Of a DNA stretch of 64,000 nucleotides, positions 5,217-24,898 are shown piece by piece. Below the pieces are notes generated by a model. It had not been told where the DNA came from. It saw nothing but the letters and a program-made list of their open reading frames with translations, and searched no databases. The translations under genes were made by a program, and so were the position numbers. Position 1 is the stretch's first letter, and each line of letters begins with the position of its first letter. Source of the stretch: Paenibacillus sp. cl123 (GTDB lineage Bacteria > Bacillota > Bacilli > Paenibacillales > NBRC-103111); contig NZ_FMYY01000009.1 of assembly GCF_900101595.1 (NCBI RefSeq), positions 1 to 64,000 on the forward strand, written 5' to 3'.

Positions 5217-6284
5217 TCAACCGGGGCCAGCCAGAGCTTCGCATATAAACTCGACGCCTGCATCATCCGGCGCAAATTCATGCCCGCCCTGAAATTCCTT
5301 GTAACGCAGCCGCCCGGACAACCCCAGCCGCTCGTAGAAGCTGCGGACGCGCTCTGCCTCCACGCGAGCATGGCTGACGTCGAACAGCTCATCTTCCAGG
5401 CCCAGCTCGATATACAGAGGCCTGGGGCACACCAGGCCGGCAATCTCCGCATCCAGGAAACGGCGTCCGGAGTCAAACCACGTCCAGTCGCTCCAGTCGT
5501 ACACAAACCGGTTATTGAAAAAACAGGAGCTGTACGCCGCTTTGATCCGCTCGTCCAGCGCAGCCGTAAACAGTGTATAAAAGCCGCCGTAAGACAAGCC
5601 CGCCATGCCGATCCGGCCGCAGTCGATATCTTCCCTCGTCTGCAAATAATCCAGCCCGCGCATCAGCTTGAAAATTTCGACGGCGGCTATGGAGCTGCCA
5701 AGCTGCTTGAGCCGCGTATCGAAGGTTTTCCTGTCCTTCTCCGGTCCCTGCCCGGGCGCCCACAGATGCAGCTGCGGAGCGAAGACTGCACATCCGCGCT
5801 GCACAAACCTGCGGATTATGCCGTTGTAATTGCTCGGCCCGTACAGCCCGGCGCATAGCTCCGGCGTCCCGGAGCCGCCGTGCTGCACCAGCACGAGCGG
5901 AAAGGGGCCCGCTCTGTCCGGCAGGAACAGCAAGCCGTACAAACTCAGGCCGTCAGCCGCCTGGACCGTCAGCCTGAACATCCCGCCCAGCCTGTGTCCG
6001 GCGGCGTCTTCGATCTTGGCCTCGGACGGCGTCCGCGCGCCGGACAGCCCGGACAGCGGCCGGCCCAGCAGCTCGCAGAGCTGCCTTCGGTATTCGGCCG
6101 CGCTCTGTGCGTAAGCCTCGGCGGAAGCAAAGCTTGGACGGAAGCGTCCCTGTCTGTACCTGTTCGCATCCGCTCGCTCGCGCTCCACCCAAGCCTGCAG
6201 CTCCCCATACTGCTGAACCCGATAAGCGTTGCCCGCTCCTTCAGGCTCCCGGTACCACTCCTGAACCTTATCGCTATCGCTCAT
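5217..6284 (-). CDS. Alpha/beta hydrolase, acetyl-xylan-esterase/dienelactone-hydrolase-like
   Basis: A 355-residue soluble alpha/beta hydrolase. The nucleophile elbow GLSYGG gives the catalytic Ser, ELGLEDELFD is the probable acid strand, and GGHEF near the C-terminus gives the catalytic His. The oxyanion-hole strand LVLVQHGGSGTP is typical of the acetyl-xylan esterase/peptidase S9-like group. No signal peptide is visible, so it acts in the cytoplasm. As the last gene after transporter, ThuA and Gfo/Idh genes it is likely to remove ester groups from imported oligosaccharides; this is inference. The start at 6284 has an AAGGAG ribosome binding site. Confidence 0.8.
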   Translation of the reverse strand: MSDSDKVQEWYREPEGAGNAYRVQQYGELQAWVERERADANRYRQGRFRPSFASAEAYAQSAAEYRRQLCELLGRPLSGLSGARTPSEAKIEDAAGHRLGGMFRLTVQAADGLSLYGLLFLPDRAGPFPLVLVQHGGSGTPELCAGLYGPSNYNGIIRRFVQRGCAVFAPQLHLWAPGQGPEKDRKTFDTRLKQLGSSIAAVEIFKLMRGLDYLQTREDIDCGRIGMAGLSYGGFYTLFTAALDERIKAAYSSCFFNNRFVYDWSDWTWFDSGRRFLDAEIAGLVCPRPLYIELGLEDELFDVSHARVEAERVRSFYERLGLSGRLRYKEFQGGHEFAPDDAGVEFICEALAGPG

Positions 6285-6343
6285 CGCCGACTCCTTCCCG
6301 TACTACGCACAATAGACCTCTCGCCCGGAGACAAAGCCTGCCC

Positions 6344-7408
6344 TCAATCGAGCCGCACCTCCGCTCCCCTGGCCGCCGATTCGTAGATTGCGCTCAGGAT
6401 GCGGATCATATCGACCCCGCCTTCCGGGTCATTGACGGGCTTCTCTCTTCCGAGCACGCATTCGATAAAGTGATGAATATGCTCCGCATGCGGAGCCAGC
6501 CCACCGGCGGGAAATCGGGGTACGATATCGCACAGCACATGCCCGATCTCCGTCATCAGCTTGAGGTCGCCGTTCTTCAGGCTGCAGCCCGCTTGCGTGC
6601 CTCGCAGCTCGACGAACTTCAGGCCCTCTTCCACATTCGACGCCCAGCTGAACTCGATCTGCAGGGTCGCTCCGTTATCGAAGCGGATAAAGCCGGTCGC
6701 CAAGTCCTCGACGTCGAATACGCCTCCCTCCAGGACATTGCCGAACGCGCTGTCCTCCGCATCCGACAAGGCGGAGTCGGCGAACTTCGCGTAGGCCGCT
6801 CCGCTGACCGCAACCGGACGCGGATTGCCCATCAGCCAAACCGCCAGATCGATCATGTGAACGCCCAGATCGATCAACGGTCCGCCGCCGGACATCGCCT
6901 TGTTCGTAAACCAGCCTCCCCGGCCGGGAATACCCCGACGGCGTACCCATCCTGCGCGGCCGGTATAAATTTCCCCCATAGCCCCGCTGTCGATATACGC
7001 CTTCAGGAAGCGGGCGGCGGGCGTGAACCGGTTGTTGCGCATCGCCATCAGCAGCTTGCCCGAGCTGCTGGCCGCATCGGCCATCCGCTGCGCCTCCTCC
7101 GGGCTGATGGCGTCCGGCTTCTCGCAGAAAACATGCTGTCCATGCTCCAGAGCCGCTATGGCAACCTCCGAATGGAGCACGTTGGGCGTGCAGATGTCCA
7201 CGGCGTCCAGCTCCTCTTGCTCCAGCATCTCGCGGTAGTCGGTGTAGACGCGGGCAACGCCGAGCTGCACGGCCAATGTTTCCGCGCATTCCCGGTCAAT
7301 ATCGCATAGTGCCGTCAGCTCCGCATCCGGATGCGAGGCCCAGCCGGGGACATGCGAGCCCCTGAATATTTTTCCTGCTCCGACCACTCCGATCTTCAAT
7401 CGACTCAT
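6344..7408 (-). CDS. Gfo/Idh/MocA-family oxidoreductase
   Basis: A 354-residue NAD(P)-dependent sugar oxidoreductase. The N-terminal Rossmann fold starts with [11 protein letters not shown], the family EKP motif gives Lys97, and the catalytic pair Asp180/His184 lies in [10 protein letters not shown]. Family members oxidise or reduce sugars and inositols, or make 3-keto-glycosides. Its start overlaps the ThuA stop by four bases (ATGA), which indicates translational coupling. A ThuA/oxidoreductase pair is known from trehalose/disaccharide catabolism by 3-keto intermediates, and a similar route is plausible here. The true substrate is unknown. Confidence 0.9.
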
Positions 7409-8154
7409 CTCGCTTCACCTGCTCCTTTCGGCTTAATCGTCTCCAGCGCCGGCACGGACTTGCCGTAACGCTGAGGCTCTCGCTTCACGGGCGCCGCCCA
7501 CCGGATGCTGTTGGAGATTACGCGCAGCACATGGGGATCATAATACGTCGGGTACAGCTCGTGTCCGGGGCGGAAATAAAAGATTTTCCCCTGGCCCCGG
7601 CTGTAGCAGCATCCGCTCCGAAACACATTGCCCCCTTCGAACCAGCTTGTCAGCACCACCTCATCCGGCGGCGGAACGTCGAAAAACTCCCCGTACATTT
7701 CCTCCCGCTCCAGCTCGAAATACGGCCCGATGCCTTCGACGATCGGGTGGCCCGGCGCTGTGACCCAGAGCCGCTCCCGCTCGCCTTCGTCGCGGTACAG
7801 CAGCGCGCAGCTTGTGCCCATCAGCCGCTTGAATATTTTCGAATAGTGGCCGGAGTGAAGCACGATCAGCCCCATCCCTTGCAGCACCCGGGCCGCGACG
7901 CGCTCCACGACCTCGTCATGCACCTCTTTATGCGCCGTATGCCCCCACCAGATGAGCACATCGGTCTGCGCCAGCGCCTCGACCGACAAGCCATGCTCCG
8001 GCTCGTCGAGCGTCGCCATACGGATGGCGAAATCCCCGATCAAGCCATCTGCGATCGCCCGGTGCATCCCTTCCGGATAAATCGCCCTCACGTGCGGCTT
8101 GTTAACCTCATGGCGGTATTCATTCCATACCGTGACCCGGATGGTTTCGCTCAT
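7405..8154 (-). CDS. ThuA-family protein
   Basis: A 249-residue ThuA-type protein with a class I glutamine amidotransferase-like fold. [34 protein letters not shown], the acid-rich [13 protein letters not shown] and [19 protein letters not shown] are family landmarks. ThuA proteins act with Gfo/Idh oxidoreductases on disaccharides such as trehalose; the chemistry probably involves 3-keto sugars. The gene overlaps the downstream oxidoreductase by four bases and follows the permease gene by 50 bases. It is therefore probably part of the same transcript as the transporter. Confidence 0.88.
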
Positions 8155-8204
8155 GTTTGTTTCCTCCTCTTTATGCTCCTTGGAGCGTCATGATCCCCGT
8201 ATCT

Positions 8205-9089
8205 TTATCCCTTGACCGCCCCGATCGTCATTCCCTTGACGAAATACTTCTGCAGGAAAGCGAACAGAAACATAACCGGCAGCGAGGTGAGCACCATCAT
8301 CGCATACATGATCGCATCCGAGGGGACATCGCTCGAATCGATCGGATTGCCGCTCGGATCGACGCCGCCGTTTTTGACCATTTCGATGTAGGCCGTAATA
8401 TTTTTCAGAATGAGCTGTATCGGGTACTTCGACGAATTGTCGATGAACAGGATGGCGTTGAACGTTTCGTTCCAGTAATTCAAGGTCATCATCAGCGCGA
8501 GCGTAGCCAGCGCCGGCTTGGACAGGGGCAGGATAATGCTCCAATACGTCCTCAGGTCGGACGCCCCGTCAATCTTGGCCGATTCCACCAGCGCCGGCGG
8601 AATTTCCTGAAAAAAAACGCGCAGCAGAAAGATTTGAAAAGGTGCCGCGAAGGCCGGGACAATTAAAGAAATCAGCATGTTTTTCCATTGCAGGTATTGA
8701 ACGATCAGGATGTAGAAAGGAACCATCCCGCCGCTGAAGATCATCGTGACGAAAATATAGAACGAGATGACGCCGCGCAGCCGGAAGTCGCGCCTGGCCA
8801 GCGGATAAGCGATCAAGGATGTGACCAGCAGGTTGAGCGTTGTCCCGAACAGCACGATGATGAGCGAATTTTTGTACCCGGACAGCAGGGTAAGCGGATC
8901 TTTGAATATATAGGTATAAGCCTCCGCCGAAAAAATTTTCGGGATAATACGGTAGCCGTACGTTTGGATCGTGCTGCCTTCCGTCAGCGATACGGAAATC
9001 GTCAGCACCATCGGCAGCAGGCACATCGCGCAGAACAGGATCAGGCACAGATGAGCCATCGTCTGCAAAGCTGCATGCTTCTGAGTCAA
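8205..9089 (-). CDS. Carbohydrate ABC transporter permease (LplC/MalG type)
   Basis: An inner-membrane permease of 294 residues with about six membrane segments. The EAA loop ESAKIDGASDLRTYWSIILPLSKPALATLALM marks the contact with the ATPase. It pairs with the LplB-type permease immediately upstream (16-base gap). TTG is the start codon, behind a strong GGAGGGGG site. No ATPase gene is present; transporters of this class usually share an MsmX-type ATPase encoded elsewhere. The matching binding protein is probably the gene ending at 18216, because both units carry the same promoter element. Confidence 0.93.
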   Translation of the reverse strand: MTQKHAALQTMAHLCLILFCAMCLLPMVLTISVSLTEGSTIQTYGYRIIPKIFSAEAYTYIFKDPLTLLSGYKNSLIIVLFGTTLNLLVTSLIAYPLARRDFRLRGVISFYIFVTMIFSGGMVPFYILIVQYLQWKNMLISLIVPAFAAPFQIFLLRVFFQEIPPALVESAKIDGASDLRTYWSIILPLSKPALATLALMMTLNYWNETFNAILFIDNSSKYPIQLILKNITAYIEMVKNGGVDPSGNPIDSSDVPSDAIMYAMMVLTSLPVMFLFAFLQKYFVKGMTIGAVKG

Positions 9090-9105
9090 ATGAATCCCCC
9101 TCCGG

Positions 9106-10035
9106 TTAAAATAACCCGTATTCTTTGTTGAACAGCTTGGCCAGCTTATTCGTGCCCAGGATCAGGACGAAGCCGACGACCGATTGAAAGACGCCGACGG
9201 CTGCGCTCATTCCGAAGTCGCCGTTCACCGTGAGCGCGCGGAACACATACGTATCCAGCACATCCGTTACCGGATACAGCACGCTCACATTGCGGGGCAC
9301 GAAGTAGAACAAGCCGAAGTCGGCCCGCAATATATGCCCGATCGACAGGATCGTCAGCATCACCATCATAGGCGCGAGAAACGGAATGGAAATATGCCGG
9401 ATCGACTGCACCTTGGTCGCTCCGTCGATCTCCGCCGCCTCGAACAGCTCCCGGTCTATGCTCATCAAGGCCGAATAATAGATCAGACTCCCGAAGCCCG
9501 TCCCCTTCCACACCCCGACCAGCGGCAGAATGATCAGCCAGTACCATGGCTCGGAGTAAAAGGAAACCTCGTTGCCGGTCAGCTGCCGGATCAAGGTCGT
9601 CAGCATCCCTGTGGATGGATTAAGCAGCGTCGTCAGCATCAAGCCGACCAGCACCCAGGAGAAGAAATACGGAAAGAACATGACCGACTGGTATACCTTC
9701 AGCATTCTCTTGCTGGTCACCTCATAGAGCAGCAGCGCGAAGCATACGCTGGCCAGCAGCTCGACGACGATCAGCATCGCGTTCAGCCCGATCGTATTGC
9801 GCAGTATTTTCCAGGCGTCCACCGATTTGAAGAAAAATTCGAAATTCGCGAATCCGTTCCAGGAGCTCCCGAGTATCCCCTTCACCGGCACATAATCCTT
9901 GAACGCCATGACGATGCCGAACATCGGCAAGTAGGAGAAAATGAAAATTTTAATGACCGCCGGCAGCGTCATCAGGATCAGCTGCCGGTCTTCCTTGACG
10001 TGCCTCAGCTTTCTTCGCAGCACTTTCGTATCCAT
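9106..10035 (-). CDS. Carbohydrate ABC transporter permease (LplB/MalF type)
   Basis: A permease with six membrane segments and the EAA loop EAAEIDGATKVQSIRHISIPFLAPMMVML. It has the LplB-type N-terminus LILMTLPAVIKIFIFSYLPM. I choose the ATG at 10035, preceded by GGAG with good spacing. An upstream in-frame ATG at 10050 contains that ribosome binding site and is less likely. Transcription probably starts at the conserved element at 10087-10153. First gene of the permease-ThuA-oxidoreductase-hydrolase string. Confidence 0.93.
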   Translation of the reverse strand: MDTKVLRRKLRHVKEDRQLILMTLPAVIKIFIFSYLPMFGIVMAFKDYVPVKGILGSSWNGFANFEFFFKSVDAWKILRNTIGLNAMLIVVELLASVCFALLLYEVTSKRMLKVYQSVMFFPYFFSWVLVGLMLTTLLNPSTGMLTTLIRQLTGNEVSFYSEPWYWLIILPLVGVWKGTGFGSLIYYSALMSIDRELFEAAEIDGATKVQSIRHISIPFLAPMMVMLTILSIGHILRADFGLFYFVPRNVSVLYPVTDVLDTYVFRALTVNGDFGMSAAVGVFQSVVGFVLILGTNKLAKLFNKEYGLF

Positions 10036-10356
10036 GCCCGTACACTCCATTTCCGCATGATCTTGTCAGCCATCCCCGCTCACGGCTTCAGTATAGGTGG
10101 CGGCTCATCCCGCTGAATACTGCAATATCGCCCGAATTCGCTTCAAATATGGCGCTCGGGCGGCCTTTGGCCGTTTTTGTATCTGGCCGGCGCTGAATTG
10201 GGCGGAAATCCCGGATGAGCAGCCGATTGACTGCGGGGCCAAACAACCGCATACGAAAAAGACGCCTTGCCCGGGGCGTGTACCGCAACCGCAAAGGCGG
10301 CTCGTTTTCCCGGGAAAGGTGTCTTATCGCATCGTGTTCATTTGCGCTGGCTTAAA
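10036..10356. other. Gap between giant secreted protein and permease genes
   Basis: This 321-base stretch contains the promoter element described at 10087-10153. The remainder up to the stop codon of the giant protein has no recognisable gene. A perfect rho-independent terminator for the giant gene was not seen. Confidence 0.6.
10087..10153 (-). promoter_or_regulatory. Regulated promoter element, copy A (before permease gene)
   Basis: Read on the minus strand, the -10 box TATACT is at 10095-10090 inside the conserved TATACTGAA. A conserved CGATATTGCAGTATT lies at 10130-10116. A second half-site CGCCATATTTGAAG spans 10154-10141, exactly 22 bases from the first. There is no good -35 box. Copies B (15705-15770) and C (19820-19886) share the same parts with the same spacing. 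The arrangement fits an activator of the AraC type binding direct repeats next to a weak promoter. Confidence 0.7.
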
Positions 10357-13300
10357 CTACTCTTGGGGAGTCTTCAGCGTCATGCTGCCCGATCTGGCGT
10401 AGAGGCCGAAATAGCCAGGGTCGTCGATTCGGCCTGCAGCCGTGTCGAGGAAATAGAATACATTTTCACCGTCGATATTCAAAATCAGCCTTACGCCGCC
10501 GCTTTCATTGACAGCTCCGACCTGGACGCGGTGCAGCTCGTGGAACGGAATAAAATAGTTCGGGATGCCTGGTCCGCCGATGCTCGTATAGCCGCTGATA
10601 TTGCCGTAGATGACCGTCCGTTCTCCGCCGTTGAAGCGGTGCAGCTCGATGACATCCTCCTTAAAGCAGATCAGGTAAAGGTCGTTCGTCGCGGAGGTGA
10701 AGGGCTGGTTGGGCTGCTGGATGCGCAGCGCCAGGGACGGCCAGCCGCCGTCCGAATCCAGCTGCAAATCCATCGTCAGCAGCTCGTCTTCGAACGTATC
10801 GCCCTGGTAGGTCGCGAAGCCGCTCGGCGTGACGATCGTGAGGCTGTCCGTTTCCGCTTGCAGATTGCCGCTTCCGCTAGCGTACACATGCCATCGGTCC
10901 GGGTCATTGATGACTTCATCCAGCGAATAAGCATCATACTCCAGACCGGCCGGGTTCCCGAAATGCAGCACGTTCACCTCGATCGTTCTCGTCCGCTCAA
11001 TGCCGTCGACCATAAGCGAAAACTCCACGTCGGCGCTGCCTACGGCTGCGGCCGTGAGCAAGCCTTGCGCGTCAATCTGCACCACGGACGGATTGCTGCT
11101 CGTGTAGCCGAAAGCCGTGACGTTCATCGTCTGTCCGTACAAGGACTTCGCTTCGGCAATCAGCCTCTGCTCCCCGCCGCGCAGCAGGGCATACTCTTCG
11201 CCCAGGAACTGCTTCGCCTTATTTTGTACATAATACACCTCGATACGGTCGTACTCGTCATCGACGTACACAGGGACATGCCGCGTCCACAGCATCTCGC
11301 CCAGCTTCACCTGAACCCGGATGCGGGTAGCGCCCGGACCGGTCGCGGTTACATAACCCGAAGCATTCACCTCGGCTACCGTCTCATCCTCGCTCGCATA
11401 GGTAATGCTTGCGCCCGCCAAGGTCACCGGCTCATCCTTCCCCGTCGTCGCCGCGACGGTCAACTGGCTGCCGTTAGAAGATGCCAGCTCCAGCTTCTTC
11501 GGCAGCACGATACGCTCCGGTATGCCTGCAGCCAAGTCCTTGTACGCCGCCTCCAGCCCGGAGCGGGCGATAATCGCCAGCGCTTCGGCCGGCCAGTCGG
11601 CATCCGGGTACACCTGGGTATTGACCTCGTATACGCTGGCCCCGACAGTCTTGATGGCGGATGTGGTCGTATAGTTCGTATCGAACAAAATGTCATGGCT
11701 CGTCAGCGATCCGTTGACAAAGCCCCATGTCGCCGGGAAAATCTCGTCCCACATCGGCGTTTCCGTGGTATCGATGACATTGCGCTCGCTTTTCCAGTAC
11801 GTGGAGCCTTCGTCATTGTAGATCACCCCGTACCGGTTCATCTGATTGCACAAATAGTTTTCCGTGATCTCGTTTTTATGGCCAGCCGTACCGCCTGTGC
11901 CGCCCAGCGTATAGATGGCCCCTCCGTCATAAATCTGCTCGCCCAAAATATCATGGATAAAGTTCGCATGAAGCTTCGCATTGCGCAGAGCCGATGTCTT
12001 CACATGCGCCAGGCCGTACCCGATCGTGATTCCATCATACGGCACGTTGAATATTTCGTTGTGGCTCACATCCGCATCCACGACAAAGCCAAGTCCGATG
12101 GCGGCAGAGGAGCGGTAATCGATGCCGATGTCGTGGATATAATTGTTCGTAATATCCACGTTCTTAAGCAGCTTCCGCGGATCGGACGGATTGGATATGT
12201 CCGTGTCCAGCTTGGTCGTCTCCCCGACATTGATCGCTCCGCCCGATATATCGAAGAACCGGTTGCCTCGGATCAAGCTTTCCTGAACCCCGTTGACCAT
12301 CTTGATAGCCATAATGCCCAGCTTCGAAAATTCGTTGCGCTCGAACCGGATATGCGAGGCCTTCTCGACGGTAACCGCTCCGATCGGCAGCTTGTCGATC
12401 CCGTAGCGGAGCAGGTTGTTCTGCGCATCGGCATGGCCCATGTCGGAGCTCGGACGAAGCCAGGTCGTATAGGAGAAGGTCAAGCCTTCGAAATGGATGC
12501 CGTCCACCGGCGTATCCAGCGTGGTGCCCTCCAGCTTCATCAGCTCCTCGATGACCGGAGCGACCACCTCGGCCGTGTTCAGCGACTCGCCCGGTCTAGG
12601 CTTATAGTAGAACGTATCGGTCGACCGGTCCAGATACCATTCCCCCGGCTCGTCGAGCAGCTCGTAGGCGTTCTCCACATACCACGGGTTGACAACCGAA
12701 GGTCGGATCGTCACATAACCCCAGCCGGGCTGCTTCATCGTAAAGACGGCCTTGCCGTTCTCCACCGCCGCAGCCTGTACGCCGATCCGCGGATTGGTCC
12801 ACTCCGCTTTGTAGACGAATTCCAGATCCGTGATCCGTCCCCAGCCCGTCATGGCCGTATCGTCGGATATATAGCCGCCCTCCGTCTTGACCGGCGCGGT
12901 CAACCCGCCTTCGCTTCTCGCCCGCACGGCCCGGATGCCGTTCACATACAGCTGCCGGGTTTCGATGTCGCCGCCGGCGGATGCCTTATAGATGTTCTGG
13001 CCGGCATCATGCAGCGTCCACCCGGTGATCCGCTTGCCGCCCTCGATGACCGGCTTCTCGCCCGGATAAGCCTTGTAAATCACCCAGTGGCCGTTGCTGC
13101 CCGAATCGCGTTCGTCAAACAACAGCGTCGCCTGCTGAACGTAGCTGCCCTCCCGCATATACACGACGATGTCTCCCGTCATATCGGCATTGACAGTACG
13201 GACTGCGTCTCTGGCCTTCTGCAGCGTCTGAAATGGCGCTGCCTCCGTTCCCGGATTGCCGTCGTTTCCGCTAGGCGATACATAATAGGCGGCCTGAAGC

Positions 13301-15582
13301 TGCCGGGCCGCTGCCGTTACCACAGCCGATGCCGCATGGCCTCCGTCTGCCGTCGTAGCCGTAATCTGCGCGCTGCCCGCTCCAACCGCGGTCACGCGGC
13401 CTTCGCTGTCGACGGTCGCCACAGAAGGATTGCTGGTCGTCCAGGCGACCGCCGGATTGCTCGAATCCGCAGGCAGCACGGCAGCTGTCAGCAGACGGTC
13501 AGAGCCAATCGGCAAAGCCAGCTCGGTCGCACTCAGCGAGACGCTGGCGGGATGGCGTACCAGCACCCGCACCTGAACGCTGGCGGTCCATGACCCGTCC
13601 ACGGTCGTGCCGGTGATGGTCGCATAGCCTTCGGATAGCCCGGAAGCATGGCCAAGCTCGTCTACTGCCAGCACAGCCGGATCGCTGCTCGTCCACAGCA
13701 CCGAGGTGAAGGTCGGATCGGCCGGCACGAAGTCCGGCTTCAGTTCGGTCGTGCGGTGCAGTCCCAGCTCAGCCGGCACGCCGCTTAAACCGAAGCCGGT
13801 TACCGGCCTATAGCTGAAAGCCTGAATATCGTCGAAATAAGCCGTCCCAGCGGCTTGGCTGTACATACCGAATTGGAGATTGCGAAACTCATCGGCGGAT
13901 GTCATCAACGCCAGCCCAGTCCGCTTGAGAGCTCCGTCGATGTACAAGTCGTACTTGCCGGTCGCCGCATTCAAGGCCAGGTCGAACTGGTACCAGCGGT
14001 TCGTCTCATACGGCTGAACAGCCTCCCATACCCCATTTTGCATAACCGCAATCTTGCCGTTGTTGTGGAAAATTGTCTGCGCGACGGCCGCTCCCGCGCT
14101 GTTGCGGACATTGGCGACATAGACGACGGCATCCGTCTGCTTCGCCATCGCCCGGATGGACAGCTTCAGCTTCGCATGTCCGGCCGACAGCGCTTTGGAG
14201 ACATTGTAGCTGTTGGCCGTCGGAGCGGGCTTCTCGATGCGGAAGCTTCGGCCGGAGGAGTACGGATTATCCGCCACTTCGGCGGTCACCCCCGCAGCGC
14301 TCGGGATGCTGAACGTGCCCGGCTTCGTGCCGGGAGCGTAAGTCTCGAAGCGCTCGTTGACCAGATCCCCGCCCGGCTTCACGGTAACCTGCATGCTGTC
14401 GCTGTAAGCCCCGTCCTCGCTGACCGCCGTGATCGTGCCGACGCCGGCCGTCAGGGCGTTTAAGGTCGCCGTTCCGGCATAAACGTCGTACACGACAGAT
14501 ACCACCGACGGCTGGGCAGACTGCCAGTGAATCTTTTTGTTCGTCGCATAGAAGGGCTCCAGCTCCGCCGACACATTCAGGCTATCCCCGGTGTACATCG
14601 TGAGCTCGTGCCGGCTCAAGGCAAGGCCGGTGACCGGCACCTCCGGTCCTGCCGGTACGGTCACCGTGCACTCGGCATACGCGCCTCCCTCGGCGGCCGC
14701 CGTAATGACAGCCGTCCCCGCGCCCCAGGCCGTCATCCTTCCCTGACCGTCCACCCGCACGACTCCGTTATCGCTCGAGCTCCAAGTAACCGCTTGCAAA
14801 GAAGTCCAGGAAGGTTGAACCGTCGCGCTTAGCTGCTCGCTGTCGCCGAGAGCAAGCGTCGCGGCCGTTTTATTCAAGACCAGACTGTGCGTGTACACAT
14901 CGATGTCGTCGAAATATGCAGCTCCTGTCGTGGTACGAAATACTTGAAAGTCGGTCTGCTTCAAATTTGACGCGTCGGTATTTTTGAAGTCGATCGGCCC
15001 CGCCTTTTTCACGCCGTCGATGAACAGGCTGTACTGCCGCGCGCCGGTATCGACAACGGCTGCGATGTCATACCATACGCCGGATGCATAAGGCTGCATA
15101 ATGACCGTTCCGCTCGCCAGCTGGTAACGGATATTGCCGTCCGTGGTGAAGACGACGGTCGCCAGCTCTTTGCTGTCGGACGAGCGGAGCTGCATCGCGA
15201 TAATCGTGGCGTCCGTCTGCGCTGCCATCACCTTCGCCCGTACCACATATTGTCCCGTCAGGGCAGTGCCCAGCACGCTGCGGGCGTACAGATTCGTAGC
15301 CGTGTCCGTGCCCGTACGTTCGATTTTCAAGCTTTTGTTGGCCGCATCCGGGGTTTCGGCTACCGACACCGTGCCCAAGGCTTCCTTGTAGCTCCAGCCT
15401 GCTCCGCCGGGCTTGGAGCCGGTCGCCGTGCCGTCGAAGGCCTCATGAACGATATCGCCCGGAGCTGTCAGAGATTCGGCAGCATGCGCCTCAGGTCCCG
15501 AACCCGTTATAACCGTCCCCGTGATTAAGCTGATCGCAAGCGTCTTGGCCAACCATCGTTTCCATGTCGAATAGAACACCAT
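10357..15582 (-). CDS. Giant secreted protein: Ig-like repeats plus right-handed parallel beta-helix (GH141-like)
   Basis: A 1741-residue extracellular protein. Residues 1-34 form a signal peptide (cleavage near AHA-AES). Then come a concanavalin-like sandwich (about 38-232), two BIG2 Ig-like repeats (234-401), a second sandwich (403-592), two more BIG2 repeats (593-757), and a right-handed beta-helix (about 763-1363) opening with YYVSPSGNDGNPGT. Two further Ig-like repeats (1363-1538) and a C-terminal sandwich (1540-1741) follow. The beta-helix opening resembles GH141 enzymes (fucosidase/xylanase) and related polysaccharide-active helices, so glycan cleavage is likely; the catalytic residues cannot be assigned by eye. 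There is no LPXTG or SLH anchor. Element B precedes it, giving a leader of about 120 bases. It sits between the sensor-regulator and permease genes of the same regulon. Confidence 0.88.
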   Translation of the reverse strand: MVFYSTWKRWLAKTLAISLITGTVITGSGPEAHAAESLTAPGDIVHEAFDGTATGSKPGGAGWSYKEALGTVSVAETPDAANKSLKIERTGTDTATNLYARSVLGTALTGQYVVRAKVMAAQTDATIIAMQLRSSDSKELATVVFTTDGNIRYQLASGTVIMQPYASGVWYDIAAVVDTGARQYSLFIDGVKKAGPIDFKNTDASNLKQTDFQVFRTTTGAAYFDDIDVYTHSLVLNKTAATLALGDSEQLSATVQPSWTSLQAVTWSSSDNGVVRVDGQGRMTAWGAGTAVITAAAEGGAYAECTVTVPAGPEVPVTGLALSRHELTMYTGDSLNVSAELEPFYATNKKIHWQSAQPSVVSVVYDVYAGTATLNALTAGVGTITAVSEDGAYSDSMQVTVKPGGDLVNERFETYAPGTKPGTFSIPSAAGVTAEVADNPYSSGRSFRIEKPAPTANSYNVSKALSAGHAKLKLSIRAMAKQTDAVVYVANVRNSAGAAVAQTIFHNNGKIAVMQNGVWEAVQPYETNRWYQFDLALNAATGKYDLYIDGALKRTGLALMTSADEFRNLQFGMYSQAAGTAYFDDIQAFSYRPVTGFGLSGVPAELGLHRTTELKPDFVPADPTFTSVLWTSSDPAVLAVDELGHASGLSEGYATITGTTVDGSWTASVQVRVLVRHPASVSLSATELALPIGSDRLLTAAVLPADSSNPAVAWTTSNPSVATVDSEGRVTAVGAGSAQITATTADGGHAASAVVTAAARQLQAAYYVSPSGNDGNPGTEAAPFQTLQKARDAVRTVNADMTGDIVVYMREGSYVQQATLLFDERDSGSNGHWVIYKAYPGEKPVIEGGKRITGWTLHDAGQNIYKASAGGDIETRQLYVNGIRAVRARSEGGLTAPVKTEGGYISDDTAMTGWGRITDLEFVYKAEWTNPRIGVQAAAVENGKAVFTMKQPGWGYVTIRPSVVNPWYVENAYELLDEPGEWYLDRSTDTFYYKPRPGESLNTAEVVAPVIEELMKLEGTTLDTPVDGIHFEGLTFSYTTWLRPSSDMGHADAQNNLLRYGIDKLPIGAVTVEKASHIRFERNEFSKLGIMAIKMVNGVQESLIRGNRFFDISGGAINVGETTKLDTDISNPSDPRKLLKNVDITNNYIHDIGIDYRSSAAIGLGFVVDADVSHNEIFNVPYDGITIGYGLAHVKTSALRNAKLHANFIHDILGEQIYDGGAIYTLGGTGGTAGHKNEITENYLCNQMNRYGVIYNDEGSTYWKSERNVIDTTETPMWDEIFPATWGFVNGSLTSHDILFDTNYTTTSAIKTVGASVYEVNTQVYPDADWPAEALAIIARSGLEAAYKDLAAGIPERIVLPKKLELASSNGSQLTVAATTGKDEPVTLAGASITYASEDETVAEVNASGYVTATGPGATRIRVQVKLGEMLWTRHVPVYVDDEYDRIEVYYVQNKAKQFLGEEYALLRGGEQRLIAEAKSLYGQTMNVTAFGYTSSNPSVVQIDAQGLLTAAAVGSADVEFSLMVDGIERTRTIEVNVLHFGNPAGLEYDAYSLDEVINDPDRWHVYASGSGNLQAETDSLTIVTPSGFATYQGDTFEDELLTMDLQLDSDGGWPSLALRIQQPNQPFTSATNDLYLICFKEDVIELHRFNGGERTVIYGNISGYTSIGGPGIPNYFIPFHELHRVQVGAVNESGGVRLILNIDGENVFYFLDTAAGRIDDPGYFGLYARSGSMTLKTPQE

Positions 15583-15704
15583 TCATCCACCCTTCGTTCC
15601 ATATGGATTTTCATTCCGTACGAAAGCCTTGACCTGCTCCTCCTTTCCGCCGCTCGCTTCCTCATCCGGCTAACCGCAGCCGATCCGAAGCCCTTGCGGA
15701 CGGC

Positions 15705-15770
15705 TTCAGTATAGAGGCATTCGCTGCGCAAAAATACTGCAAATTCGTCCAAGCCGACTTTAAATCCGGC
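15705..15770 (-). promoter_or_regulatory. Regulated promoter element, copy B (before giant secreted protein)
   Basis: Same layout as copies A and C. The -10 TATACT lies in TATACTGAA (15713-15705), GGACGAATTTGCAGTATTTT covers 15750-15731, and the distal half-site GCCGGATTTAAAG covers 15770-15758. The distance between half-sites is again 22 bases. The spacing from the -10 box to the proximal site is 19 bases, against 20 in A and C. Confidence 0.7.
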
Positions 15771-15813
15771 AGGGATGCCCGGTTTTTCCCGCGGCTGCGG
15801 CCGAGCAGCCCGC

Positions 15814-18087
15814 CTATGGCTCTTCAGCCAGCTTCAGGCTCCGGAATTCATTGGGAGTGATGCCGTTGTATTTTTTGAACAAGGTGTAGAAATAATTGAT
15901 GTTCGCAAAGCCGCTGCGAAGAGCGACCTCCTGGACCGACGCTTCCGTCTGCTCCAGCAAACTCTTTGCCCGGTCCATCCGGTACCGGTTAATGGACTCT
16001 CCCAGCGATTCGCCGGATGCTTTTTTGTACAGCGAACGCAAATATTTGGCGGAAATGCCCAAATGGTCGGCAATCATCTCCGGACTGAGGCTCGGACTTG
16101 CATATTCCTGCTCCAGAAACCGGTCCACCTGATCCAAAATATCGCTGTACCGTTCATGCCGCTTGACCGTCTCCAGCGAACGGGACAATACGCCGAAAAT
16201 ATCCGACAGCAGCCCCTCCAGCTTGTCTCCGATCTCCTCCAGCGTCTCATAGGACGAGATCCGGCTGGCCATGTCCAGAAACGGTACATAGCTGATCTCG
16301 TCCGCGAAGATGTTATACTTCTTGAGCGATTCCTTGAGCGAGACCGCCATCTGCAGCACAGCCGTCTGCAGCGAGGTCAGCGAATAGCCCCGCGCGCTCT
16401 CGACGATGCTGCGGCTGCAGGCATAGGCCGCCTCCCTGTTGCCCGCCAGCAGCTGGTCCAGCAGCTCCGCGCATATTTGCTCGGGAAAGACGTATTCCCG
16501 CTTGCGCATTTCCTTGACTCCGGACGCGTACAGCACAGCTCTCGGACCATGAAACAGCTTATACTCCAGCGCTTCCGCGCATAAAGCCATGCTGTCCGGA
16601 ATATCGGAGATTTCCTCCAGCCTGTCGCCGATCGATACGGAGAGGGATACCCTGAGATAATGAGCGATTTTGTCCTGAATCTCTCTCGCCAGGCCCTCCA
16701 TACGAACCGTCAACGTTTCGTCGTCTTCATCGTCCAGATTGAAGATGACGGCGATACTGCCGCCTCCGAGATCTACAGCTTCATGCCGGAACAACGGCCC
16801 GGCCAGCTCGCCGATCATATTGATGAAGCCGTAAGCCAGCAGCGCCCTGTCCTCCAGACTGTACCGGCTGCAATATTCGTCATACCGGTCGATCCTCAGC
16901 ATCACGATCATAAAGCCGTTCTCCAGCTTGAACGGGATATGGAAACGGGCAAAGCGCTTGCGGTGCACGCTGTCATCCAGCTTGCGGGTCGTCAGCATCC
17001 GCAAGTACTGCTGCTTTTTCTCGAAGCCGGCATGCTTCTCGGCATCGTACTTCGTCTCGAGCTCGCGGAGCTTGCGGTTGAACAGCCCGTAGACCGCTTT
17101 GCTGATCCACAGAACGGCCAGCACGGAGCATACCGTAACCAGCAGAAAAATAACAATCGTCGTCCATAAAATTCGCTGGAGCTTGCCCGACACGGCCTCA
17201 TAGGGCGTAAAGCGGATAAATTTCCAGTCATGCAGCTTAGAAGAAACATAGCTGATGACATACTTTTCCCCGTCGATCATCCTCACCGCATAACCGGACG
17301 GCTGACCGTCGCGGAGAATATCCCGCAGCTCGGCATATGCGTTCAAATCCTCCAAATATCCGTACCGGTCATTGCTCAGCGCGATCCGTCCAGCCGCATC
17401 GGTAATAATCGTTTCTCCGCTGCTCTCGGGGTTCATCGACTTGATCGTGTTTTTCATCCATTCCTGAGACACGTTGAGCACAATCGCTCCGTCGATCTTG
17501 TCTGCGTGACCGTCATAGAAAACGAAGGTGTACACGTCATCCGTGAGACTGAGATCGATGCTCGGACTGGTGTAGTTGCCCGGCGCCGGAATCCGTCTTG
17601 CCATCGGATGCAGATTGACAACCTCGCCCTTCGTCTGCAGCTTGCCCACAATATCCTGATCCGGAAAGCTCTCCAGCGTAAACGCCTTGCCGTCGAAATA
17701 GATCCGGTTCGCCTGCTTATTGTACATATAAATCGAGTTGACCAAGGGCATGTTGATATGGACGACCCCGATCTGCTGCAGCAAAGAAGCCACCTCCAGC
17801 TCCCCCAGATCCGAGTAATTCATCAGCTTCAATACGGCCGGATTCGCATAGAGCTGCAGCAGCGTCAGCTTGGCCGCCTCGAACATGAAGCTCGTGCTGT
17901 AGCTGATCTGCGACAGCTCCTCCACGGTGTACGTCTGCACCAGATCGACGGCGTGGCGCTCATAGCTCATATGCATGGAGGAGGATAAGATGATGTTGGC
18001 CGCCAGCACGATAACGGCGAAGGAAAGGAACAGATTGGCGTAACTGAACATAGTCCTTCTTTGTTTCCGACCGATGAATGTGAGCAT
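15814..18087 (-). CDS. Membrane-anchored AraC-family regulator with extracytoplasmic sensor domain
   Basis: A 757-residue one-component regulator. Membrane segment 1 is at about residues 15-36 and segment 2 at about 306-330, enclosing a roughly 270-residue Cache-like outer sensor domain. A linker and a GGDEF-like degenerate region (about 390-500) follow. Two AraC-type helix-turn-helix motifs end the protein (SPEMIADHLGISAKYLRSLY and VQEVALRSGFANINYFYTLF, ending GITPNEFRSLKL). Such proteins sense a glycan or its binding protein outside and activate local glycan genes. It lies directly behind the binding-protein gene and ahead of the giant secreted protein, and is the best candidate to bind elements A, B and C. 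Confidence 0.9.
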   Translation of the reverse strand: MLTFIGRKQRRTMFSYANLFLSFAVIVLAANIILSSSMHMSYERHAVDLVQTYTVEELSQISYSTSFMFEAAKLTLLQLYANPAVLKLMNYSDLGELEVASLLQQIGVVHINMPLVNSIYMYNKQANRIYFDGKAFTLESFPDQDIVGKLQTKGEVVNLHPMARRIPAPGNYTSPSIDLSLTDDVYTFVFYDGHADKIDGAIVLNVSQEWMKNTIKSMNPESSGETIITDAAGRIALSNDRYGYLEDLNAYAELRDILRDGQPSGYAVRMIDGEKYVISYVSSKLHDWKFIRFTPYEAVSGKLQRILWTTIVIFLLVTVCSVLAVLWISKAVYGLFNRKLRELETKYDAEKHAGFEKKQQYLRMLTTRKLDDSVHRKRFARFHIPFKLENGFMIVMLRIDRYDEYCSRYSLEDRALLAYGFINMIGELAGPLFRHEAVDLGGGSIAVIFNLDDEDDETLTVRMEGLAREIQDKIAHYLRVSLSVSIGDRLEEISDIPDSMALCAEALEYKLFHGPRAVLYASGVKEMRKREYVFPEQICAELLDQLLAGNREAAYACSRSIVESARGYSLTSLQTAVLQMAVSLKESLKKYNIFADEISYVPFLDMASRISSYETLEEIGDKLEGLLSDIFGVLSRSLETVKRHERYSDILDQVDRFLEQEYASPSLSPEMIADHLGISAKYLRSLYKKASGESLGESINRYRMDRAKSLLEQTEASVQEVALRSGFANINYFYTLFKKYNGITPNEFRSLKLAEEP

Positions 18088-18151
18088 CTGAATCCTCCTG
18101 ATTGAAAGCAGTCTCGGTAAGGTGAGCAGGGCTCCTCATGGAAAAAGGAAA

Positions 18152-18179
18152 ATCCAAATCATCCGGGGATGATTTGGAT
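18152..18179 (-). terminator. Terminator after the binding-protein gene
   Basis: A perfect 12-base stem ATCCAAATCATC / GATGATTTGGAT with a four-base loop. On the minus strand it is followed by TTTTCCTTTTTCC. It lies between the binding-protein stop and the regulator start. It should reduce read-through, so the regulator is expressed at a lower level than the binding protein. Confidence 0.75.
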
Positions 18180-18215
18180 AACCGGTCTAAGGAATGGCGG
18201 ACGGCACAGCCGGGA

Positions 18216-19745
18216 TCATTTCTTCTTCTGCGCGATAAAAGCGTCTACCTGCGCTTGCTTCTCGGCCAGCACCTTGTCGATCCCCGCCGTCTTCAGCTTG
18301 GCGAGAAATTCGGCATGCTTCTTCTCGGTATCGGCTCCATACATGCCGCTGTTGAAATTGGCCTTGTATTCGTTGATGATCGCCGCGCAGTTGGCAATCT
18401 CGGTCTTGACCTTGTCGGGACTGAAGTTGAATCCGTACAGCCGGGATACGGTCGCCGTTTCGTTGAGTTCCTTGGTCTTCTCCCACACATCGTCCGGCTG
18501 CGTACCCACGACATAGGAGTTGAACTGGTTGCCGAACATCCAGCCTGGAGCGGGGCCATACTTAGCGCCTGGCAGCGACTCGATCCGGTTGTCGCCGACC
18601 TTCTTGTAATCCACGCCTTCGATGCCCCAAACCATCAGATTATAAAGCTCCTTGTCCGTATTCATCAGCTCCAGGAACATCAGGGCGCGCTCCGGGTTTT
18701 TGGAGGTCGAGGAAACGGCGGTCATCGTTGCGATCGCATTGGGCGTAGTGAGCATCGGCTTGCCGAACGGGATGACGTACTGATCGCTCTTATACGTGGT
18801 CTTGACGCTCTGCTCAATGCCCGGCATCAAGGTTGCCAGGGGCGAGGCCGCATACTTGGAGGTGTCGAAGGTAGGCCGGGTCAGCGCGTCCTTGGCGATG
18901 AGCCCTTTCTCCATCAACATCTTATTAGTCATAATAAAATCCTTGAATTCAGGCGTATCGTATTCATTGAATACTTTCGGGCTCGCCTCTGTCGACTTGG
19001 CAACTCCCGGCACATCCGTGCCCCCGATCGTCTCCCATTCATAATACGGGTATAAATAACTGAACACTTGGTTTTTAATCTGGGCATTATACAGCTGATC
19101 CGTCTTGTCGGCCGGCTCTCCAGCCTTCACCTTCTCGAGAAACGGAGCTAAATCAGACAGCTTGGCAACTCCCTTGGGATCGAACCCGTACTTGTCGGCC
19201 AGCGGCTTGGACAAGTTAACACCGGCCTGGCGCGCAAATATCTGCTGATTGATGCTCGCATATATTTTGCCGTTCACCTTGGCCGCTTCCCAAATTTCCG
19301 GCTTGAACTGGGCATACGTTTTAGGGGCATATTTCGGCAGCAGCTCCGTAATATCCACGAAGGAGCCTTTCGCTGCATGATCATAATAATTCAAATAATT
19401 GGGCGACGTGAACGCAAGATCGAACTCTTCCTGCGCATTGACCATAATCGTCATCTTCTGTGTGTAATCGCCGTTATTTGGAATTTTGATGAATTCAACC
19501 GTCGCGTTGATCTTCTCCTTCACCAGCTTGCTGATCGCTTCGTACACGGTCTGATCGCCCGGCTTGGCCGCTCCATAGAAATAATATTTCAGCGTGACGG
19601 GCTTCAGTTCCTCCTTCTGTCCGGCGGCGCCGGAGGGTGCCGCCTGCTCCGTTCCGGTCTGCTGACAGCCCCCGAGCAGGACAGCCGACATGAGCGAAAG
19701 CAGCATGACCGCGCGAAAAGGCTTGTTTACCAGTTTGTTCGCCAT
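18216..19745 (-). CDS. Extracellular solute-binding lipoprotein of a sugar ABC transporter (LipO/family 1 type)
   Basis: A lipoprotein that delivers an oligosaccharide to the LplB/LplC-type permeases. The lipobox is LLGGC after a hydrophobic stretch AVMLLSLMSAVLLGG. The following low-complexity linker is rich in Gln, Gly, Ala and Pro. The mature domain carries PGDQTVYEAISKLVKEK early and ends in a Lys-rich tail. I use the ATG at 19745 (MANKLVNKPF), which gives a normal signal peptide; an upstream ATG at 19790 has no ribosome binding site. Promoter element C is about 80 bases upstream. The 509-residue length is usual for the family. Confidence 0.92.
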   Translation of the reverse strand: MANKLVNKPFRAVMLLSLMSAVLLGGCQQTGTEQAAPSGAAGQKEELKPVTLKYYFYGAAKPGDQTVYEAISKLVKEKINATVEFIKIPNNGDYTQKMTIMVNAQEEFDLAFTSPNYLNYYDHAAKGSFVDITELLPKYAPKTYAQFKPEIWEAAKVNGKIYASINQQIFARQAGVNLSKPLADKYGFDPKGVAKLSDLAPFLEKVKAGEPADKTDQLYNAQIKNQVFSYLYPYYEWETIGGTDVPGVAKSTEASPKVFNEYDTPEFKDFIMTNKMLMEKGLIAKDALTRPTFDTSKYAASPLATLMPGIEQSVKTTYKSDQYVIPFGKPMLTTPNAIATMTAVSSTSKNPERALMFLELMNTDKELYNLMVWGIEGVDYKKVGDNRIESLPGAKYGPAPGWMFGNQFNSYVVGTQPDDVWEKTKELNETATVSRLYGFNFSPDKVKTEIANCAAIINEYKANFNSGMYGADTEKKHAEFLAKLKTAGIDKVLAEKQAQVDAFIAQKKK

Positions 19746-19819
19746 TTGCTGTAAACCCCATTTCTCTGCATAATAAAGTGCCGTATCCATGAACCCGATC
19801 GGACCGCGGTTCAGGCAAT

Positions 19820-19886
19820 TTCAGTATACAACTGCAAAATCGCGGAAAAACACTGCAATATCGTCCGAACGGGCTTTAAATACGGC
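19820..19886 (-). promoter_or_regulatory. Regulated promoter element, copy C (before binding-protein gene)
   Basis: The -10 TATACT lies in TATACTGAA (19828-19820). GGACGATATTGCAGTGTT covers 19866-19849, and the distal half-site GCCGTATTTAAAG covers 19886-19874, 22 bases away. This copy has an extra repeat, CGATTTTGCAGT (19842-19831), 21 bases downstream of the middle one. It therefore carries three direct repeats running up to the -10 box. Confidence 0.72.
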
Positions 19887-20052
19887 TTCCGTCTGGCCAC
19901 CGGGCGTTTTCATAGCGACGGAGGCCGATATTGCAGCGTAGGCACAGGCAGCAGCTCCAGGGACAAACATGGGCAAGGAATTTCATAAGCTTTTTCTGCG
20001 CCATAAACCTACAGCATTTGTCGGTCTTTCTCTTGCGCTCAAGAAATGACCA

Positions 20053-20084
20053 AAGAAGACCAGAGCTCCCGCTCTGGTCTTCTT
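20053..20084. terminator. Hairpin downstream of sulfatase gene
   Basis: A perfect 14-base stem (AAGAAGACCAGAGC with its complement) and a four-base loop, just past the sulfatase stop codon. The arm sequence itself gives a T-rich end. The following bases are only moderately T-rich, so strength is uncertain. Confidence 0.6.
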
Positions 20085-20118
20085 CGTCATATTCCACCAT
20101 GGAGCTCCGGAGGCTCCT

Positions 20119-21489
20119 TCACTCATCTGCCAAATCCCTTGCCGTCAGCGCAAGCTGACCGACCGGCTCCTCAGGCACAGGCTCGATGACCGCTTTAGGC
20201 TCGCCGGCCTCGGCCATCCGGCGCAGCAGCCTTTCGCGCAGCGACTGCTTGATCTCGTTATGGGCCCTGCTGCCGATGAGGTTGTTCAGCTCCCATGGGT
20301 CAGCCTTCAGGTCATAGAGGAACTCCTCGGCGTACCGGCTGCTCCCGCTGTCGGCGATCGCATCCTTATCCGGCGCCGATACGCTGTATTTCCAGCGCTT
20401 CGTACGGATGGCGCGGCCAACCTGGGATTCGCTGATCTGCACGAATGCCTCCTGCGGCCAGTCCATCCGCTCCCGCCGCATGAGCGGCAGCAGCGAGCGG
20501 CCTTGCATAGCCGCGGGCACGGTCCCGCCCGCCGCCTCGATCAGCGTAGGAGGCAGATCAAGCAGGCTTACCAGCTCCGTGATCCGTCCGCCGCCTCGGA
20601 AGCATGGCCCCCATACTGCAGCCGGGATACGGATCGAGCTCTCGTGGCAGGAGCGCTTGTATTCACCGTTGCGCGTTTTGAAGTGACAGCCGTGATCGGA
20701 GGTAAACAGCACGATCGTGTCGTCCGCCAGATCCAGGCTGATCAACGCGTCCATAAGGCGGCCCAGCGCTTCGTCCAGCCGCTTCACCATCGCATAATAG
20801 CCAGGCAGCTGCCGCTGGGAGGTGCCCCCTAGCTCCGCCAGATCGGGCGGCGTCCACCGCGAGACGTACCGGTCCTCTTGCCCGCTCGGGGCCGGATAGT
20901 CGTCGCGTCTGTTCTGATGATGGGGCTCCAGGTAAGACAGGAACAGGAAAAACGGCTCTGCCTGCTCCCGCTGCCCGTCGATATAACGGATGGCCGCGTC
21001 GGTCAGCGCATCGACCCGGTAGCCGGGCAGCTTCACACGGCGATTCTCTCCGTCATACAGCACGGTATCATACGCATCCGACGTATGCTCCAGCGAATCG
21101 GCCGCCAGCCAGTACCGGTACCCGCCTCGCAGCGCTTCCGGCACCGGCTCGGTGCGGGTGGCCGCGAGATGCCATTTGCCTATATAGGCAGTATCGTAGC
21201 CAAGGTCGCCAAACTCGTGCGCCAATGTCCGGCATTCCGGCGGAAGCGGGATGCCGTTGCGGTAGCAGCCGATATCCGTCGCGTAACGGCCGGTCTGCAA
21301 GCTGGCTCTCGCCGGTCCGCAGACCGGCTGGCAGGTGAACATGTTATACAGATGAGTGCCCTCCAGCGCCCAACGGTCAAAATTCGGCGTCAAGCCAAGC
21401 GGATTGCCGTGCAGGCCTGTCGTATCCCAGCGCTGCTGGTCTGTGAAGAATACAATGACATTCGGCTTGCGTCGCTTCTCCTGGTTCAT
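20119..21489 (-). CDS. Sulfatase (Cys-type, alkaline-phosphatase superfamily)
   Basis: A 456-residue sulfatase. The N-terminal metal site is VIVFFTDQQRWD, and the modified-Cys motif CGPARASLQTG is at residues 57-67. The later FTSDHGCHF supplies further metal ligands. The motif has Ala where most C-type sulfatases have Ser (CxPSR). The Cys must be converted to formylglycine, and no maturation enzyme is seen in this window. No signal peptide is visible, so it acts in the cytoplasm on an imported sulfated sugar. It ends the binding-protein/permease operon (21558-24810), with a ribosome binding site GGGGGAGG. It makes a sulfated glycan the likely substrate of at least this transporter. Confidence 0.9.
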   Translation of the reverse strand: MNQEKRRKPNVIVFFTDQQRWDTTGLHGNPLGLTPNFDRWALEGTHLYNMFTCQPVCGPARASLQTGRYATDIGCYRNGIPLPPECRTLAHEFGDLGYDTAYIGKWHLAATRTEPVPEALRGGYRYWLAADSLEHTSDAYDTVLYDGENRRVKLPGYRVDALTDAAIRYIDGQREQAEPFFLFLSYLEPHHQNRRDDYPAPSGQEDRYVSRWTPPDLAELGGTSQRQLPGYYAMVKRLDEALGRLMDALISLDLADDTIVLFTSDHGCHFKTRNGEYKRSCHESSIRIPAAVWGPCFRGGGRITELVSLLDLPPTLIEAAGGTVPAAMQGRSLLPLMRRERMDWPQEAFVQISESQVGRAIRTKRWKYSVSAPDKDAIADSGSSRYAEEFLYDLKADPWELNNLIGSRAHNEIKQSLRERLLRRMAEAGEPKAVIEPVPEEPVGQLALTARDLADE

Positions 21490-21557
21490 AAGCTATATCC
21501 TCCCCCTCGATAAAAAGATGAAGAGGAGCCGCAGTCCCCACCGCGGCCCCTTTTTGC

Positions 21558-23311: not shown

Positions 23312-23368
23312 GATGATCCTTCCTTTCTGTCGCCACCGCACGCCTCGGCAGGGGGCCTTCGACTATGC

Positions 23369-23441
23369 CCGGCGTATAAACGCCGGCAAACGCCGGCTTC
23401 AGTGCCTGCCAAGCGAGGACGGCCGCTTGTGGGAAGCGGCC
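23369..23441. other. Two hairpins between binding-protein and permease genes
   Basis: One inverted repeat is CCGGCGT-ATAA-ACGCCGG (23369-23386). The other is GGCCGCTT-GTGGG-AAGCGGCC (23421-23441). Neither has a T-tract. Such stems between binding-protein and permease genes usually protect the upstream mRNA or give partial termination, so the binding protein is made in excess. Confidence 0.55.
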
Positions 23442-23472
23442 GGCAAGGCCGCGTTCCCCGGAAGCCAGGCTA

Positions 23473-24810: not shown

Positions 24811-24856
24811 CGCTTTATCCCCCTCTGTCCTCGGCTGTTATGCCGGCTGTGCATTT

Positions 24857-24885
24857 ATCATAGCATTCCGCCATAGGGCTCAAAA
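24857..24885 (-). promoter_or_regulatory. Candidate promoter of the binding-protein/sulfatase operon
   Basis: On the minus strand, -35 TTTTGA (24885-24880) and -10 TATGAT (24862-24857) are 17 bases apart. The -35 box is weak, as expected for an activated promoter. Confidence 0.4.
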
Positions 24886-24898
24886 GAACCGCTCTTTT

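Follow-up and report, generated by a model that had tools for sequence, protein, structure and literature searches.

A stretch of 64,000 nucleotides from Paenibacillus sp. cl123 (contig NZ_FMYY01000009.1, positions 1 to 64,000; “the window” below) carries three similar elements on its minus strand, at 10153-10087, 15770-15705 and 19886-19820. In all likelihood, these are the operators of a membrane-anchored AraC-type regulator whose gene lies among them (15814-18087). A sequence-only reading of the same DNA had placed the elements at exactly these coordinates, which we confirm, and had proposed that they make up a local regulon of the neighboring regulator. This is supported by a survey of 392 genomes of the order: the same nine carry both an ortholog of the regulator and sites of this type, and all 24 sites lie nearby. 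The kind of switch is a known one; this particular switch is new, and in the open-access literature we found no operator defined for a membrane-anchored AraC regulator of Paenibacillus.

Each element contains two half-sites, A (CCGNATTTGAAG) and B (ACGATATTGCAGT), arranged as direct repeats with a period of 21 base pairs (bp). In element 1 (10087..10153, minus strand), 5' of the permease operon, A is CCATATTTGAAG and B is GCGATATTGCAGT, followed by TATACTGAA; element 2 (15705..15770, minus strand), 5' of the gene for a giant enzyme, has A as CCGGATTTAAAG and B as ACGAATTTGCAGT, again with TATACTGAA; and element 3 (19820..19886, minus strand), 5' of the binding-protein gene, has A as CCGTATTTAAAG, B as ACGATATTGCAGT, an extra direct half-site GCGATTTTGCAGTT, and TATACTGAA. 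Aligned, the three read GCC(A/G)(T/G)ATTT(G/A)AAG-N8-G(G/A)CGA(T/A)(A/T)TTGCAGT-N21/22-(C/G)TATACTGAA. Some details of the sequence-only reading have to be adjusted: the site it saw in element 2 is present, but its letters are CGAATTTGCAGT rather than CGATATTGCAGT; the distance between half-sites is constant in all three elements, as it had said, but the register is 21 bp and not 22, so that its likening of a two-helical-turn repeat to the binding layout of AraC-type proteins holds once the period is taken as 21 bp; and the -10 box, which it put 19-20 bases further on, starts (TATACT) 23, 22 and 23 bp past the end of TTGCAGT in elements 1, 2 and 3, respectively.

In the organism's own genome (7,267,586 bases), TTGCAGT-N18..30-TATACTGAA has 3 matches, all in the window, with about 0.04 expected for uniform bases and none found for the reversed control. 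A matrix made from the three window copies alone, applied to the five ortholog loci first fetched, gave 2-3 strong sites per locus in all five (12 sites, scores 28.4-52.9; next best at most 17.1). These 12 sites and the three window sites were built into a model, R1, from sequence only. In the own genome, R1 returned the three elements (E 7.3e-15 to 3.3e-13) followed by four weak matches (E 0.2 to 1.6), and among 147 genomes its 15 strong matches were the 15 training sites, so that this search tests specificity only. Five weak R1 matches outside the locus (G109, G087 contig C90, G004, G009 and G122, the G numbers being our handles for genomes; E 3.5e-4 to 0.01) each cover 29-38 of the 67 model positions, none reaching the -10, and were counted as chance. 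The occurrence of the motif at many unrelated promoters, which the sequence-only reading had named as a result that would speak against it, was looked for in the own and related genomes and did not occur.

Three genomes not used to build R1 (G153, G309 and G375) serve as held-out cases. Among 104 genomes of the family, R1 adds G153, with three sites at a locus that has the orthologous cluster, and the regulator ortholog is present in the same seven genomes as the sites. The search of the whole order (392 genomes) contributes two more, G309 and G375, each with three sites: the nine genomes with a regulator ortholog (E <= 1e-150) are the same nine with R1 matches (E <= 1e-4), R1 having been run there with Infernal's stricter filters, which lose weak matches. 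The orthologs in the eight other genomes are 54-62% identical to the window regulator; five of them came from the first search, of 146 other genomes (54-62%), and there all the others among the matches listed were at most 32% identical. The 24 sites in the nine genomes lie between 26 bp and 23 kilobases (kb) from the regulator gene. In eight of the nine genomes, the binding-protein gene and the first permease gene each have a site in front of them; in the ninth, G049, the binding-protein gene is downstream of the permeases, and the site precedes the regulator gene instead. The giant-enzyme gene is preceded by a third site in the window, G076, G087, G153, G309 and G375; in G032, G025 and G049 the giant gene lies further downstream, and none was detected for it. 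Judging by the gene orders of G049, G032 and G025, it is the start of the predicted operon that the site accompanies.

Identity between A and B over 15 sites is 130/210 at an offset of 21 bp, as against 76/210 at 22 bp and 27-68/210 at seven other offsets, and 21 bp is also the best offset when 18 sites are taken. From TTGCAG to TATACT, start to start, the distance is 30 bp in 14 of 18 sites and 29 bp in three, the remaining one having no placed -10. The spacer before the -10 (21-22 bp) has mostly unconserved letters but keeps its length, and its few conserved positions adjoin B. The sequence-only reading was right that a proper -35 box is lacking: where a -10 could be placed (17 of 18 sites), the hexamer most like TTGACA at a spacing of 16-18 bp agrees with it in 1-3 of 6 letters, and with at most 3 of 6 none of the 17 has the form of a sigma-A promoter with a -35. 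The layout does correspond to that of an AraC/XylS class II tandem operator: a direct repeat of about 21 bp and, on sequence layout, a proximal half-site that adjoins or overlaps the place of the -35 in a promoter with a -10. The end of B lies 22-23 bp 5' of TATACT and so just upstream of the -35 position, which makes class II activation the natural interpretation.

Most of the binding-protein and permease promoters carry, in addition, an inverted half-site about three helical turns 5' of A, which was absent from the sequence-only reading. When both strands were scored with a half-site matrix built from A and B, the low coordinate of this half-site fell 31-33 bp upstream of the start of A (centers 31-33 bp apart). 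Over 14 sites not associated with giant genes (effectively 10, because three close genomes were given less weight), its best score within a span of five bases averaged 6.90. Dinucleotide shuffles (300) gave -10.95 (standard deviation 1.73); their highest value was -6.16 at that place and -3.69 when all 24 places tried were considered. No such excess was seen in the same set's four giant-gene sites (-7.69 versus -10.65, standard deviation 3.55). In G309 and G375, fetched afterwards and scored with a matrix rebuilt from the 15 training sites, the inverted half-site is at -31 or -32 in four of six sites (scores 9.1-18.9), one of which precedes a giant gene; the remaining two score -10.9 and -6.0. 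Within the window, element 1 has an inverted half-site of moderate score (7.8) at -32 from A (CCGTTTTTGTATCT, 10171..10184, plus strand, coordinates derived from the offset and checked by eye). Element 3 has a weak one at -32 (3.5) and a strong one (17.7) at -53, that is, 21 bp further upstream (CCGATATTGCAGCG, 19925..19938, plus strand, coordinates likewise derived from the offset); its extra direct half-site, also missing from the sequence-only reading, lies 21 bp downstream of B and scores 13.5.

The proposed regulator (15814..18087, minus strand, 757 residues) has two hydrophobic segments, near residues 20 and 310 by crude hydropathy, with a weak dCache_1 match between them. Its C-terminal AraC double helix-turn-helix (HTH) domain (HTH_18, 5.8e-20, residues 672-749; HTH_AraC, 2e-12, residues 711-749) places it in the AraC/XylS family, and its PDB matches include YesN, MarA and AraC. 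In seven aligned orthologs the HTH1 stretch AKYLR-[ST]-LY-[KL]-K, which we take to hold the recognition helix, is nearly invariant. Among the 21 window genes used as queries, this is the only one that has both a DNA-binding domain and an ortholog in all nine loci; the co-occurrence of sites and regulator is a strong association, and suggests that the regulator binds them.

Genomes of this group seem to be rich in AraC-type genes (239 candidates in the own genome at a loose first look), and in the window one for a soluble cupin-type protein lies near the regulon on the opposite strand (3937-4752). That this, or some other transcription factor of the locus, binds the elements is unlikely. Soluble AraC genes are found near the ortholog loci of G032, G025, G076, G087 and G153, in G025 directly beyond the binding-protein promoter, but they are not one ortholog: the window's protein is 42% identical to that of G032, 26% identical over its length to those of G076, G087 and G153, and 40% identical over only 89 residues to that of G025, while the proteins of G025, G076, G087 and G153 are of another type, 68-94% alike. 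Nor was there any soluble AraC match at E <= 1e-8 in the stretches around G049 (40 kb), G309 and G375.

Less probable again is that the elements are promoters for an alternative sigma factor, to be recognized directly rather than through an activator. The conserved blocks at a fixed distance before several genes, and the absence of a sigma-A -35, could be read in this way, but TATACT is sigma-A-like, and the upstream blocks, a direct repeat of 21 bp to which an inverted copy is often added, span about 70-100 bp and are unlike a two-box promoter; the limitation of strong matches to one locus per genome is a further argument against a sigma factor. Three similar stretches of 66-67 bp inside 10 kb might also be recent duplications, or a dispersed repeat with no regulatory role, but this is highly improbable: spacer letters mostly vary while the length holds, and the blocks have been kept in genomes with regulators at 54-62% identity, both of which speak against duplication, and the own genome has no other strong copies. 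Many riboswitches lie upstream of transport genes, as the elements do, but an RNA leader of that kind was rejected as next to impossible, the conserved stretch being upstream of the -10, and so outside a transcript starting from it, and a scan of 5000-22000 giving no Rfam family at gathering score.

Operators of the membrane-anchored regulator remain the favored identity of the three elements. Half-sites, spacings, the missing -35, conservation, and co-occurrence with the regulator are there in the DNA; from these we infer binding, activation, an oligomeric state, a ligand, and a role for the inverted half-site, in a model that would run as follows. The tandem pair A and B, two helical turns (21 bp) apart and 5' of a TATACT -10 with no -35, would be bound by the C-terminal AraC domains of the regulator. 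Sitting just 5' of RNA polymerase, the bound protein could substitute for the missing -35 contacts, and the three promoters would then be silent unless the outward-facing sensor had detected a ligand derived from the glycan or a loaded binding protein. The inverted third half-site, where present, probably takes a further subunit. With its half-site defined and confirmed in held-out genomes, one such switch can be put to a direct test, and there is a route to computational assignment of glycan regulons.

Several observations weigh against this assignment. Co-occurrence cannot tell the regulator apart from the rest of the conserved cluster, and the regulator's dCache_1 match is below the Pfam curated cut-off. 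The G049 site before the regulator gene has no recognizable -10 at the standard place. Giant-gene promoters in the window (element 2), G076, G087, G153 and G375 lack the inverted half-site at its expected place, as do the first-permease promoters of G025, G087 and G375 (in the first two of these it is not among the six best places listed), and it scores only about 3 there in element 3, in the binding-protein promoter of G087, and in both G049 sites. Finally, next to paralogous regulators the preferred repeat spacings are 19 and 43 bp rather than 21, as described further below.

How does the proposed switch compare with known systems? The tandem half-sites of AraC itself (I1-I2) recur at 21 bp. 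The sites of XylS, MekR and MtlR are bipartite tandem half-sites with a period, by printed consensus, of 21-22 bp (PMC4514859), and AraC-family dimers are said to read direct repeats because their DNA-binding and dimerization parts are flexibly joined (PMC9723621). The window family resembles XylS at Pm, MekR, MtlR and AraC at I1-I2 in having direct-repeat half-sites that end near the -35 position and would suit an AraC-type dimer (PMC4514859). It differs from them in the letters of the half-sites, in having no -35 match, in its frequent third, inverted half-site, and in its regulator, a membrane protein of 757 residues rather than a soluble one of 250-300. The closest case described, likened here by description, is that of the local AraC-type regulators beside sugar ATP-binding cassette (ABC) operons in Caldicellulosiruptor bescii, where regulators such as PecR2 and HemR control CUT1 sugar transporters (PMC8579813). 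The four single-component and three of five two-component AraC-family regulators studied there are reported to have predicted tandem-repeat sites with large spacers 5' of the promoter; the promoters were placed by mapped 5' ends, and the authors read the regulators as activators (PMC8579813). As far as that description goes, the window family adds the inverted half-site, often, and a membrane regulator. MsmR1 of Paenibacillus polymyxa is likewise an AraC-type regulator of carbohydrate genes, but is a global regulator with a sensing part of only about 140 residues; two motifs are given for it, with palindromes or inverted repeats not reported in the available part of the paper (PMC9722767).

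The window regulator also has paralogs, membrane AraC regulators of about 750 residues in the same order, which resemble it in having sugar-transport neighbors and tandem half-sites; those examined adjoin sugar transporters. A pairwise repeat scan of five paralog loci in the own genome found no window-like repeated operator, giving tandem or coding-type repeats and hairpins instead. For a broader view of layout, 85 loci around paralogous regulators (L074-L158, own and related genomes) were examined; promoters less than 90 bp from the previous recognized gene on the same strand were dropped, as were near-duplicates (89 reduced to 69 at one stage), leaving 83 non-redundant transporter promoters from 67 of the 85 loci. 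A search of promoters at paralogous loci for the window's 21-bp geometry showed no excess (at 21 bp the mean was 5.1 of 14; other offsets gave 4.5-5.6), where the 15 window-family sites, as a positive control, give 8.6 of 14. What the paralog promoters do show is a preference for other spacings. In the first transporter set, 14/35 promoters had repeats at 19 bp and 14/35 at 43 bp, versus 4.7 and 4.4 in dinucleotide shuffles, with 33 bp also in excess (11/35 versus 4.7); in loci fetched after the first set, the counts were 21/47 and 19/47, versus 7.5 and 7.3. Over all 83, 40 promoters had repeats at 19 bp, 36 at 43 bp, 29 at 24 bp and 28 at 33 bp, versus a median of 14 for offsets 8-109, and a four-box scan had its peak at 0/19/43/62, with z 6.3 among the pairs of offsets tried.

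In the clearest of the paralog arrays, GTTCAT-like boxes stand before CTATACT, 5' of sugar ABC operons. By eye, a CTTCAC box in L118 and L135 starts 29-30 bp before TATACT, matching TTGCAG in the window family; the histogram of distances to the -10 in paralog promoters has few promoters per bin. With their offsets of 0/19/43/62 and boxes such as GTTCAT and CTTCAC, these promoters differ from the window family, which has the 21-bp repeat plus the inverted site and does not show the four-box layout: its identity at 19 bp is 31/210, and +43 and -43 are outside the eight best offsets for A or B. The layout was not found in the literature searched, which was mostly open-access. In promoters of the regulator genes themselves other offsets stood out, with 24 bp in 11/33 versus 5.2 in the first set, and 21 bp in 18/42 versus 6.4 and 53 bp in 13/42 versus 6.0 in the second; their counts at 19 bp (16/33 and 18/42) are not independent, because many share DNA with a divergent transporter promoter. 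In L151, L155 and L156, a different half-site, TTAAAAAA-N2-GCAY, is repeated at 21 bp 5' of the paralogous regulator genes. The other 21-bp matches listed look like chance.

The 19/43 bp spacing is perhaps the larger finding and, if upheld, would make operators predictable for the whole regulator class. A tentative idea, which we regard as somewhat doubtful, is that the membrane AraC regulators of the order share a single multi-half-site plan with no -35, in which each paralog has its own letters and spacing class and the distance from the proximal box to the -10 is fixed (29-30 bp in the few promoters compared). The window family would represent one spacing class, with its 21-bp repeat and an inverted site three turns further 5', and many paralogs another, with two 19-bp pairs 43 bp apart. 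Membrane AraC regulators are apparently numerous per genome, and under such a plan they would amount to many mutually insulated switches, each restricted to the surroundings of its gene; anchoring of the regulator in the membrane close to its place of synthesis might be the cause.

Gene positions bear out the sequence-only reading in that the elements precede a permease pair, a giant protein and a binding protein, all on the minus strand and identified by domain matches. The solute-binding protein (18216..19790; DUF3502) would have a lipoprotein signal if it began at a later start, judged by eye to be at about 19745. The first permease (9106..10050) and the second (8205..9089) are both BPD_transp_1 proteins, and the same operon, judging by spacing, probably includes a ThuA-domain protein (7405..8154) and a Gfo/Idh/MocA oxidoreductase (6344..7408), also on the minus strand. 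An alpha/beta-hydrolase-like protein follows (5217..6284, minus strand), with weak Pfam matches and a homolog in all eight other ortholog loci. The giant protein (10357..15582, 1741 residues) has a signal-like N-terminus, Big_2 repeats and a GH141 insertion domain (Pfam GH141_M, 1.1e-9); its residues 765-1263 match the glycoside hydrolase BT_1002 (5mqp, 5.6e-60), which we take to belong to GH141 and to act on fucose in rhamnogalacturonan II, and on that assumption the giant protein is homologous to a characterized enzyme of the family. Judged from gene content alone, the cluster would serve glycan use, and a plant-wall glycan is a reasonable guess at the substrate.

G309 has two giant enzymes (L162 1-4328 and L163; contig C10, 17001-21328 and 50366-54472). 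One, whose fetched part is 71% identical to the window's enzyme, has its own operator and lies 23 kb from the regulator; the other, 49% identical over 978 residues, adjoins the regulator, and no site was detected for it.

Between the binding-protein and regulator genes is a terminator-like hairpin with a T-rich tail (18152..18179, minus strand), which could lower read-through into the regulator gene; the evidence for it is weak, since the window has 14 such sites where 13.2 are expected in shuffles. Next to the regulon is a second sugar ABC set (20119-24810), consisting of a binding protein and two permeases, then a sulfatase, with a terminator-like hairpin after it (20086-20051). Adjoining this set is a two-component pair of the YesN/YesM type (24638-27572), made up of a response regulator with an AraC HTH (24638-25786) and a histidine kinase (25710-27572).

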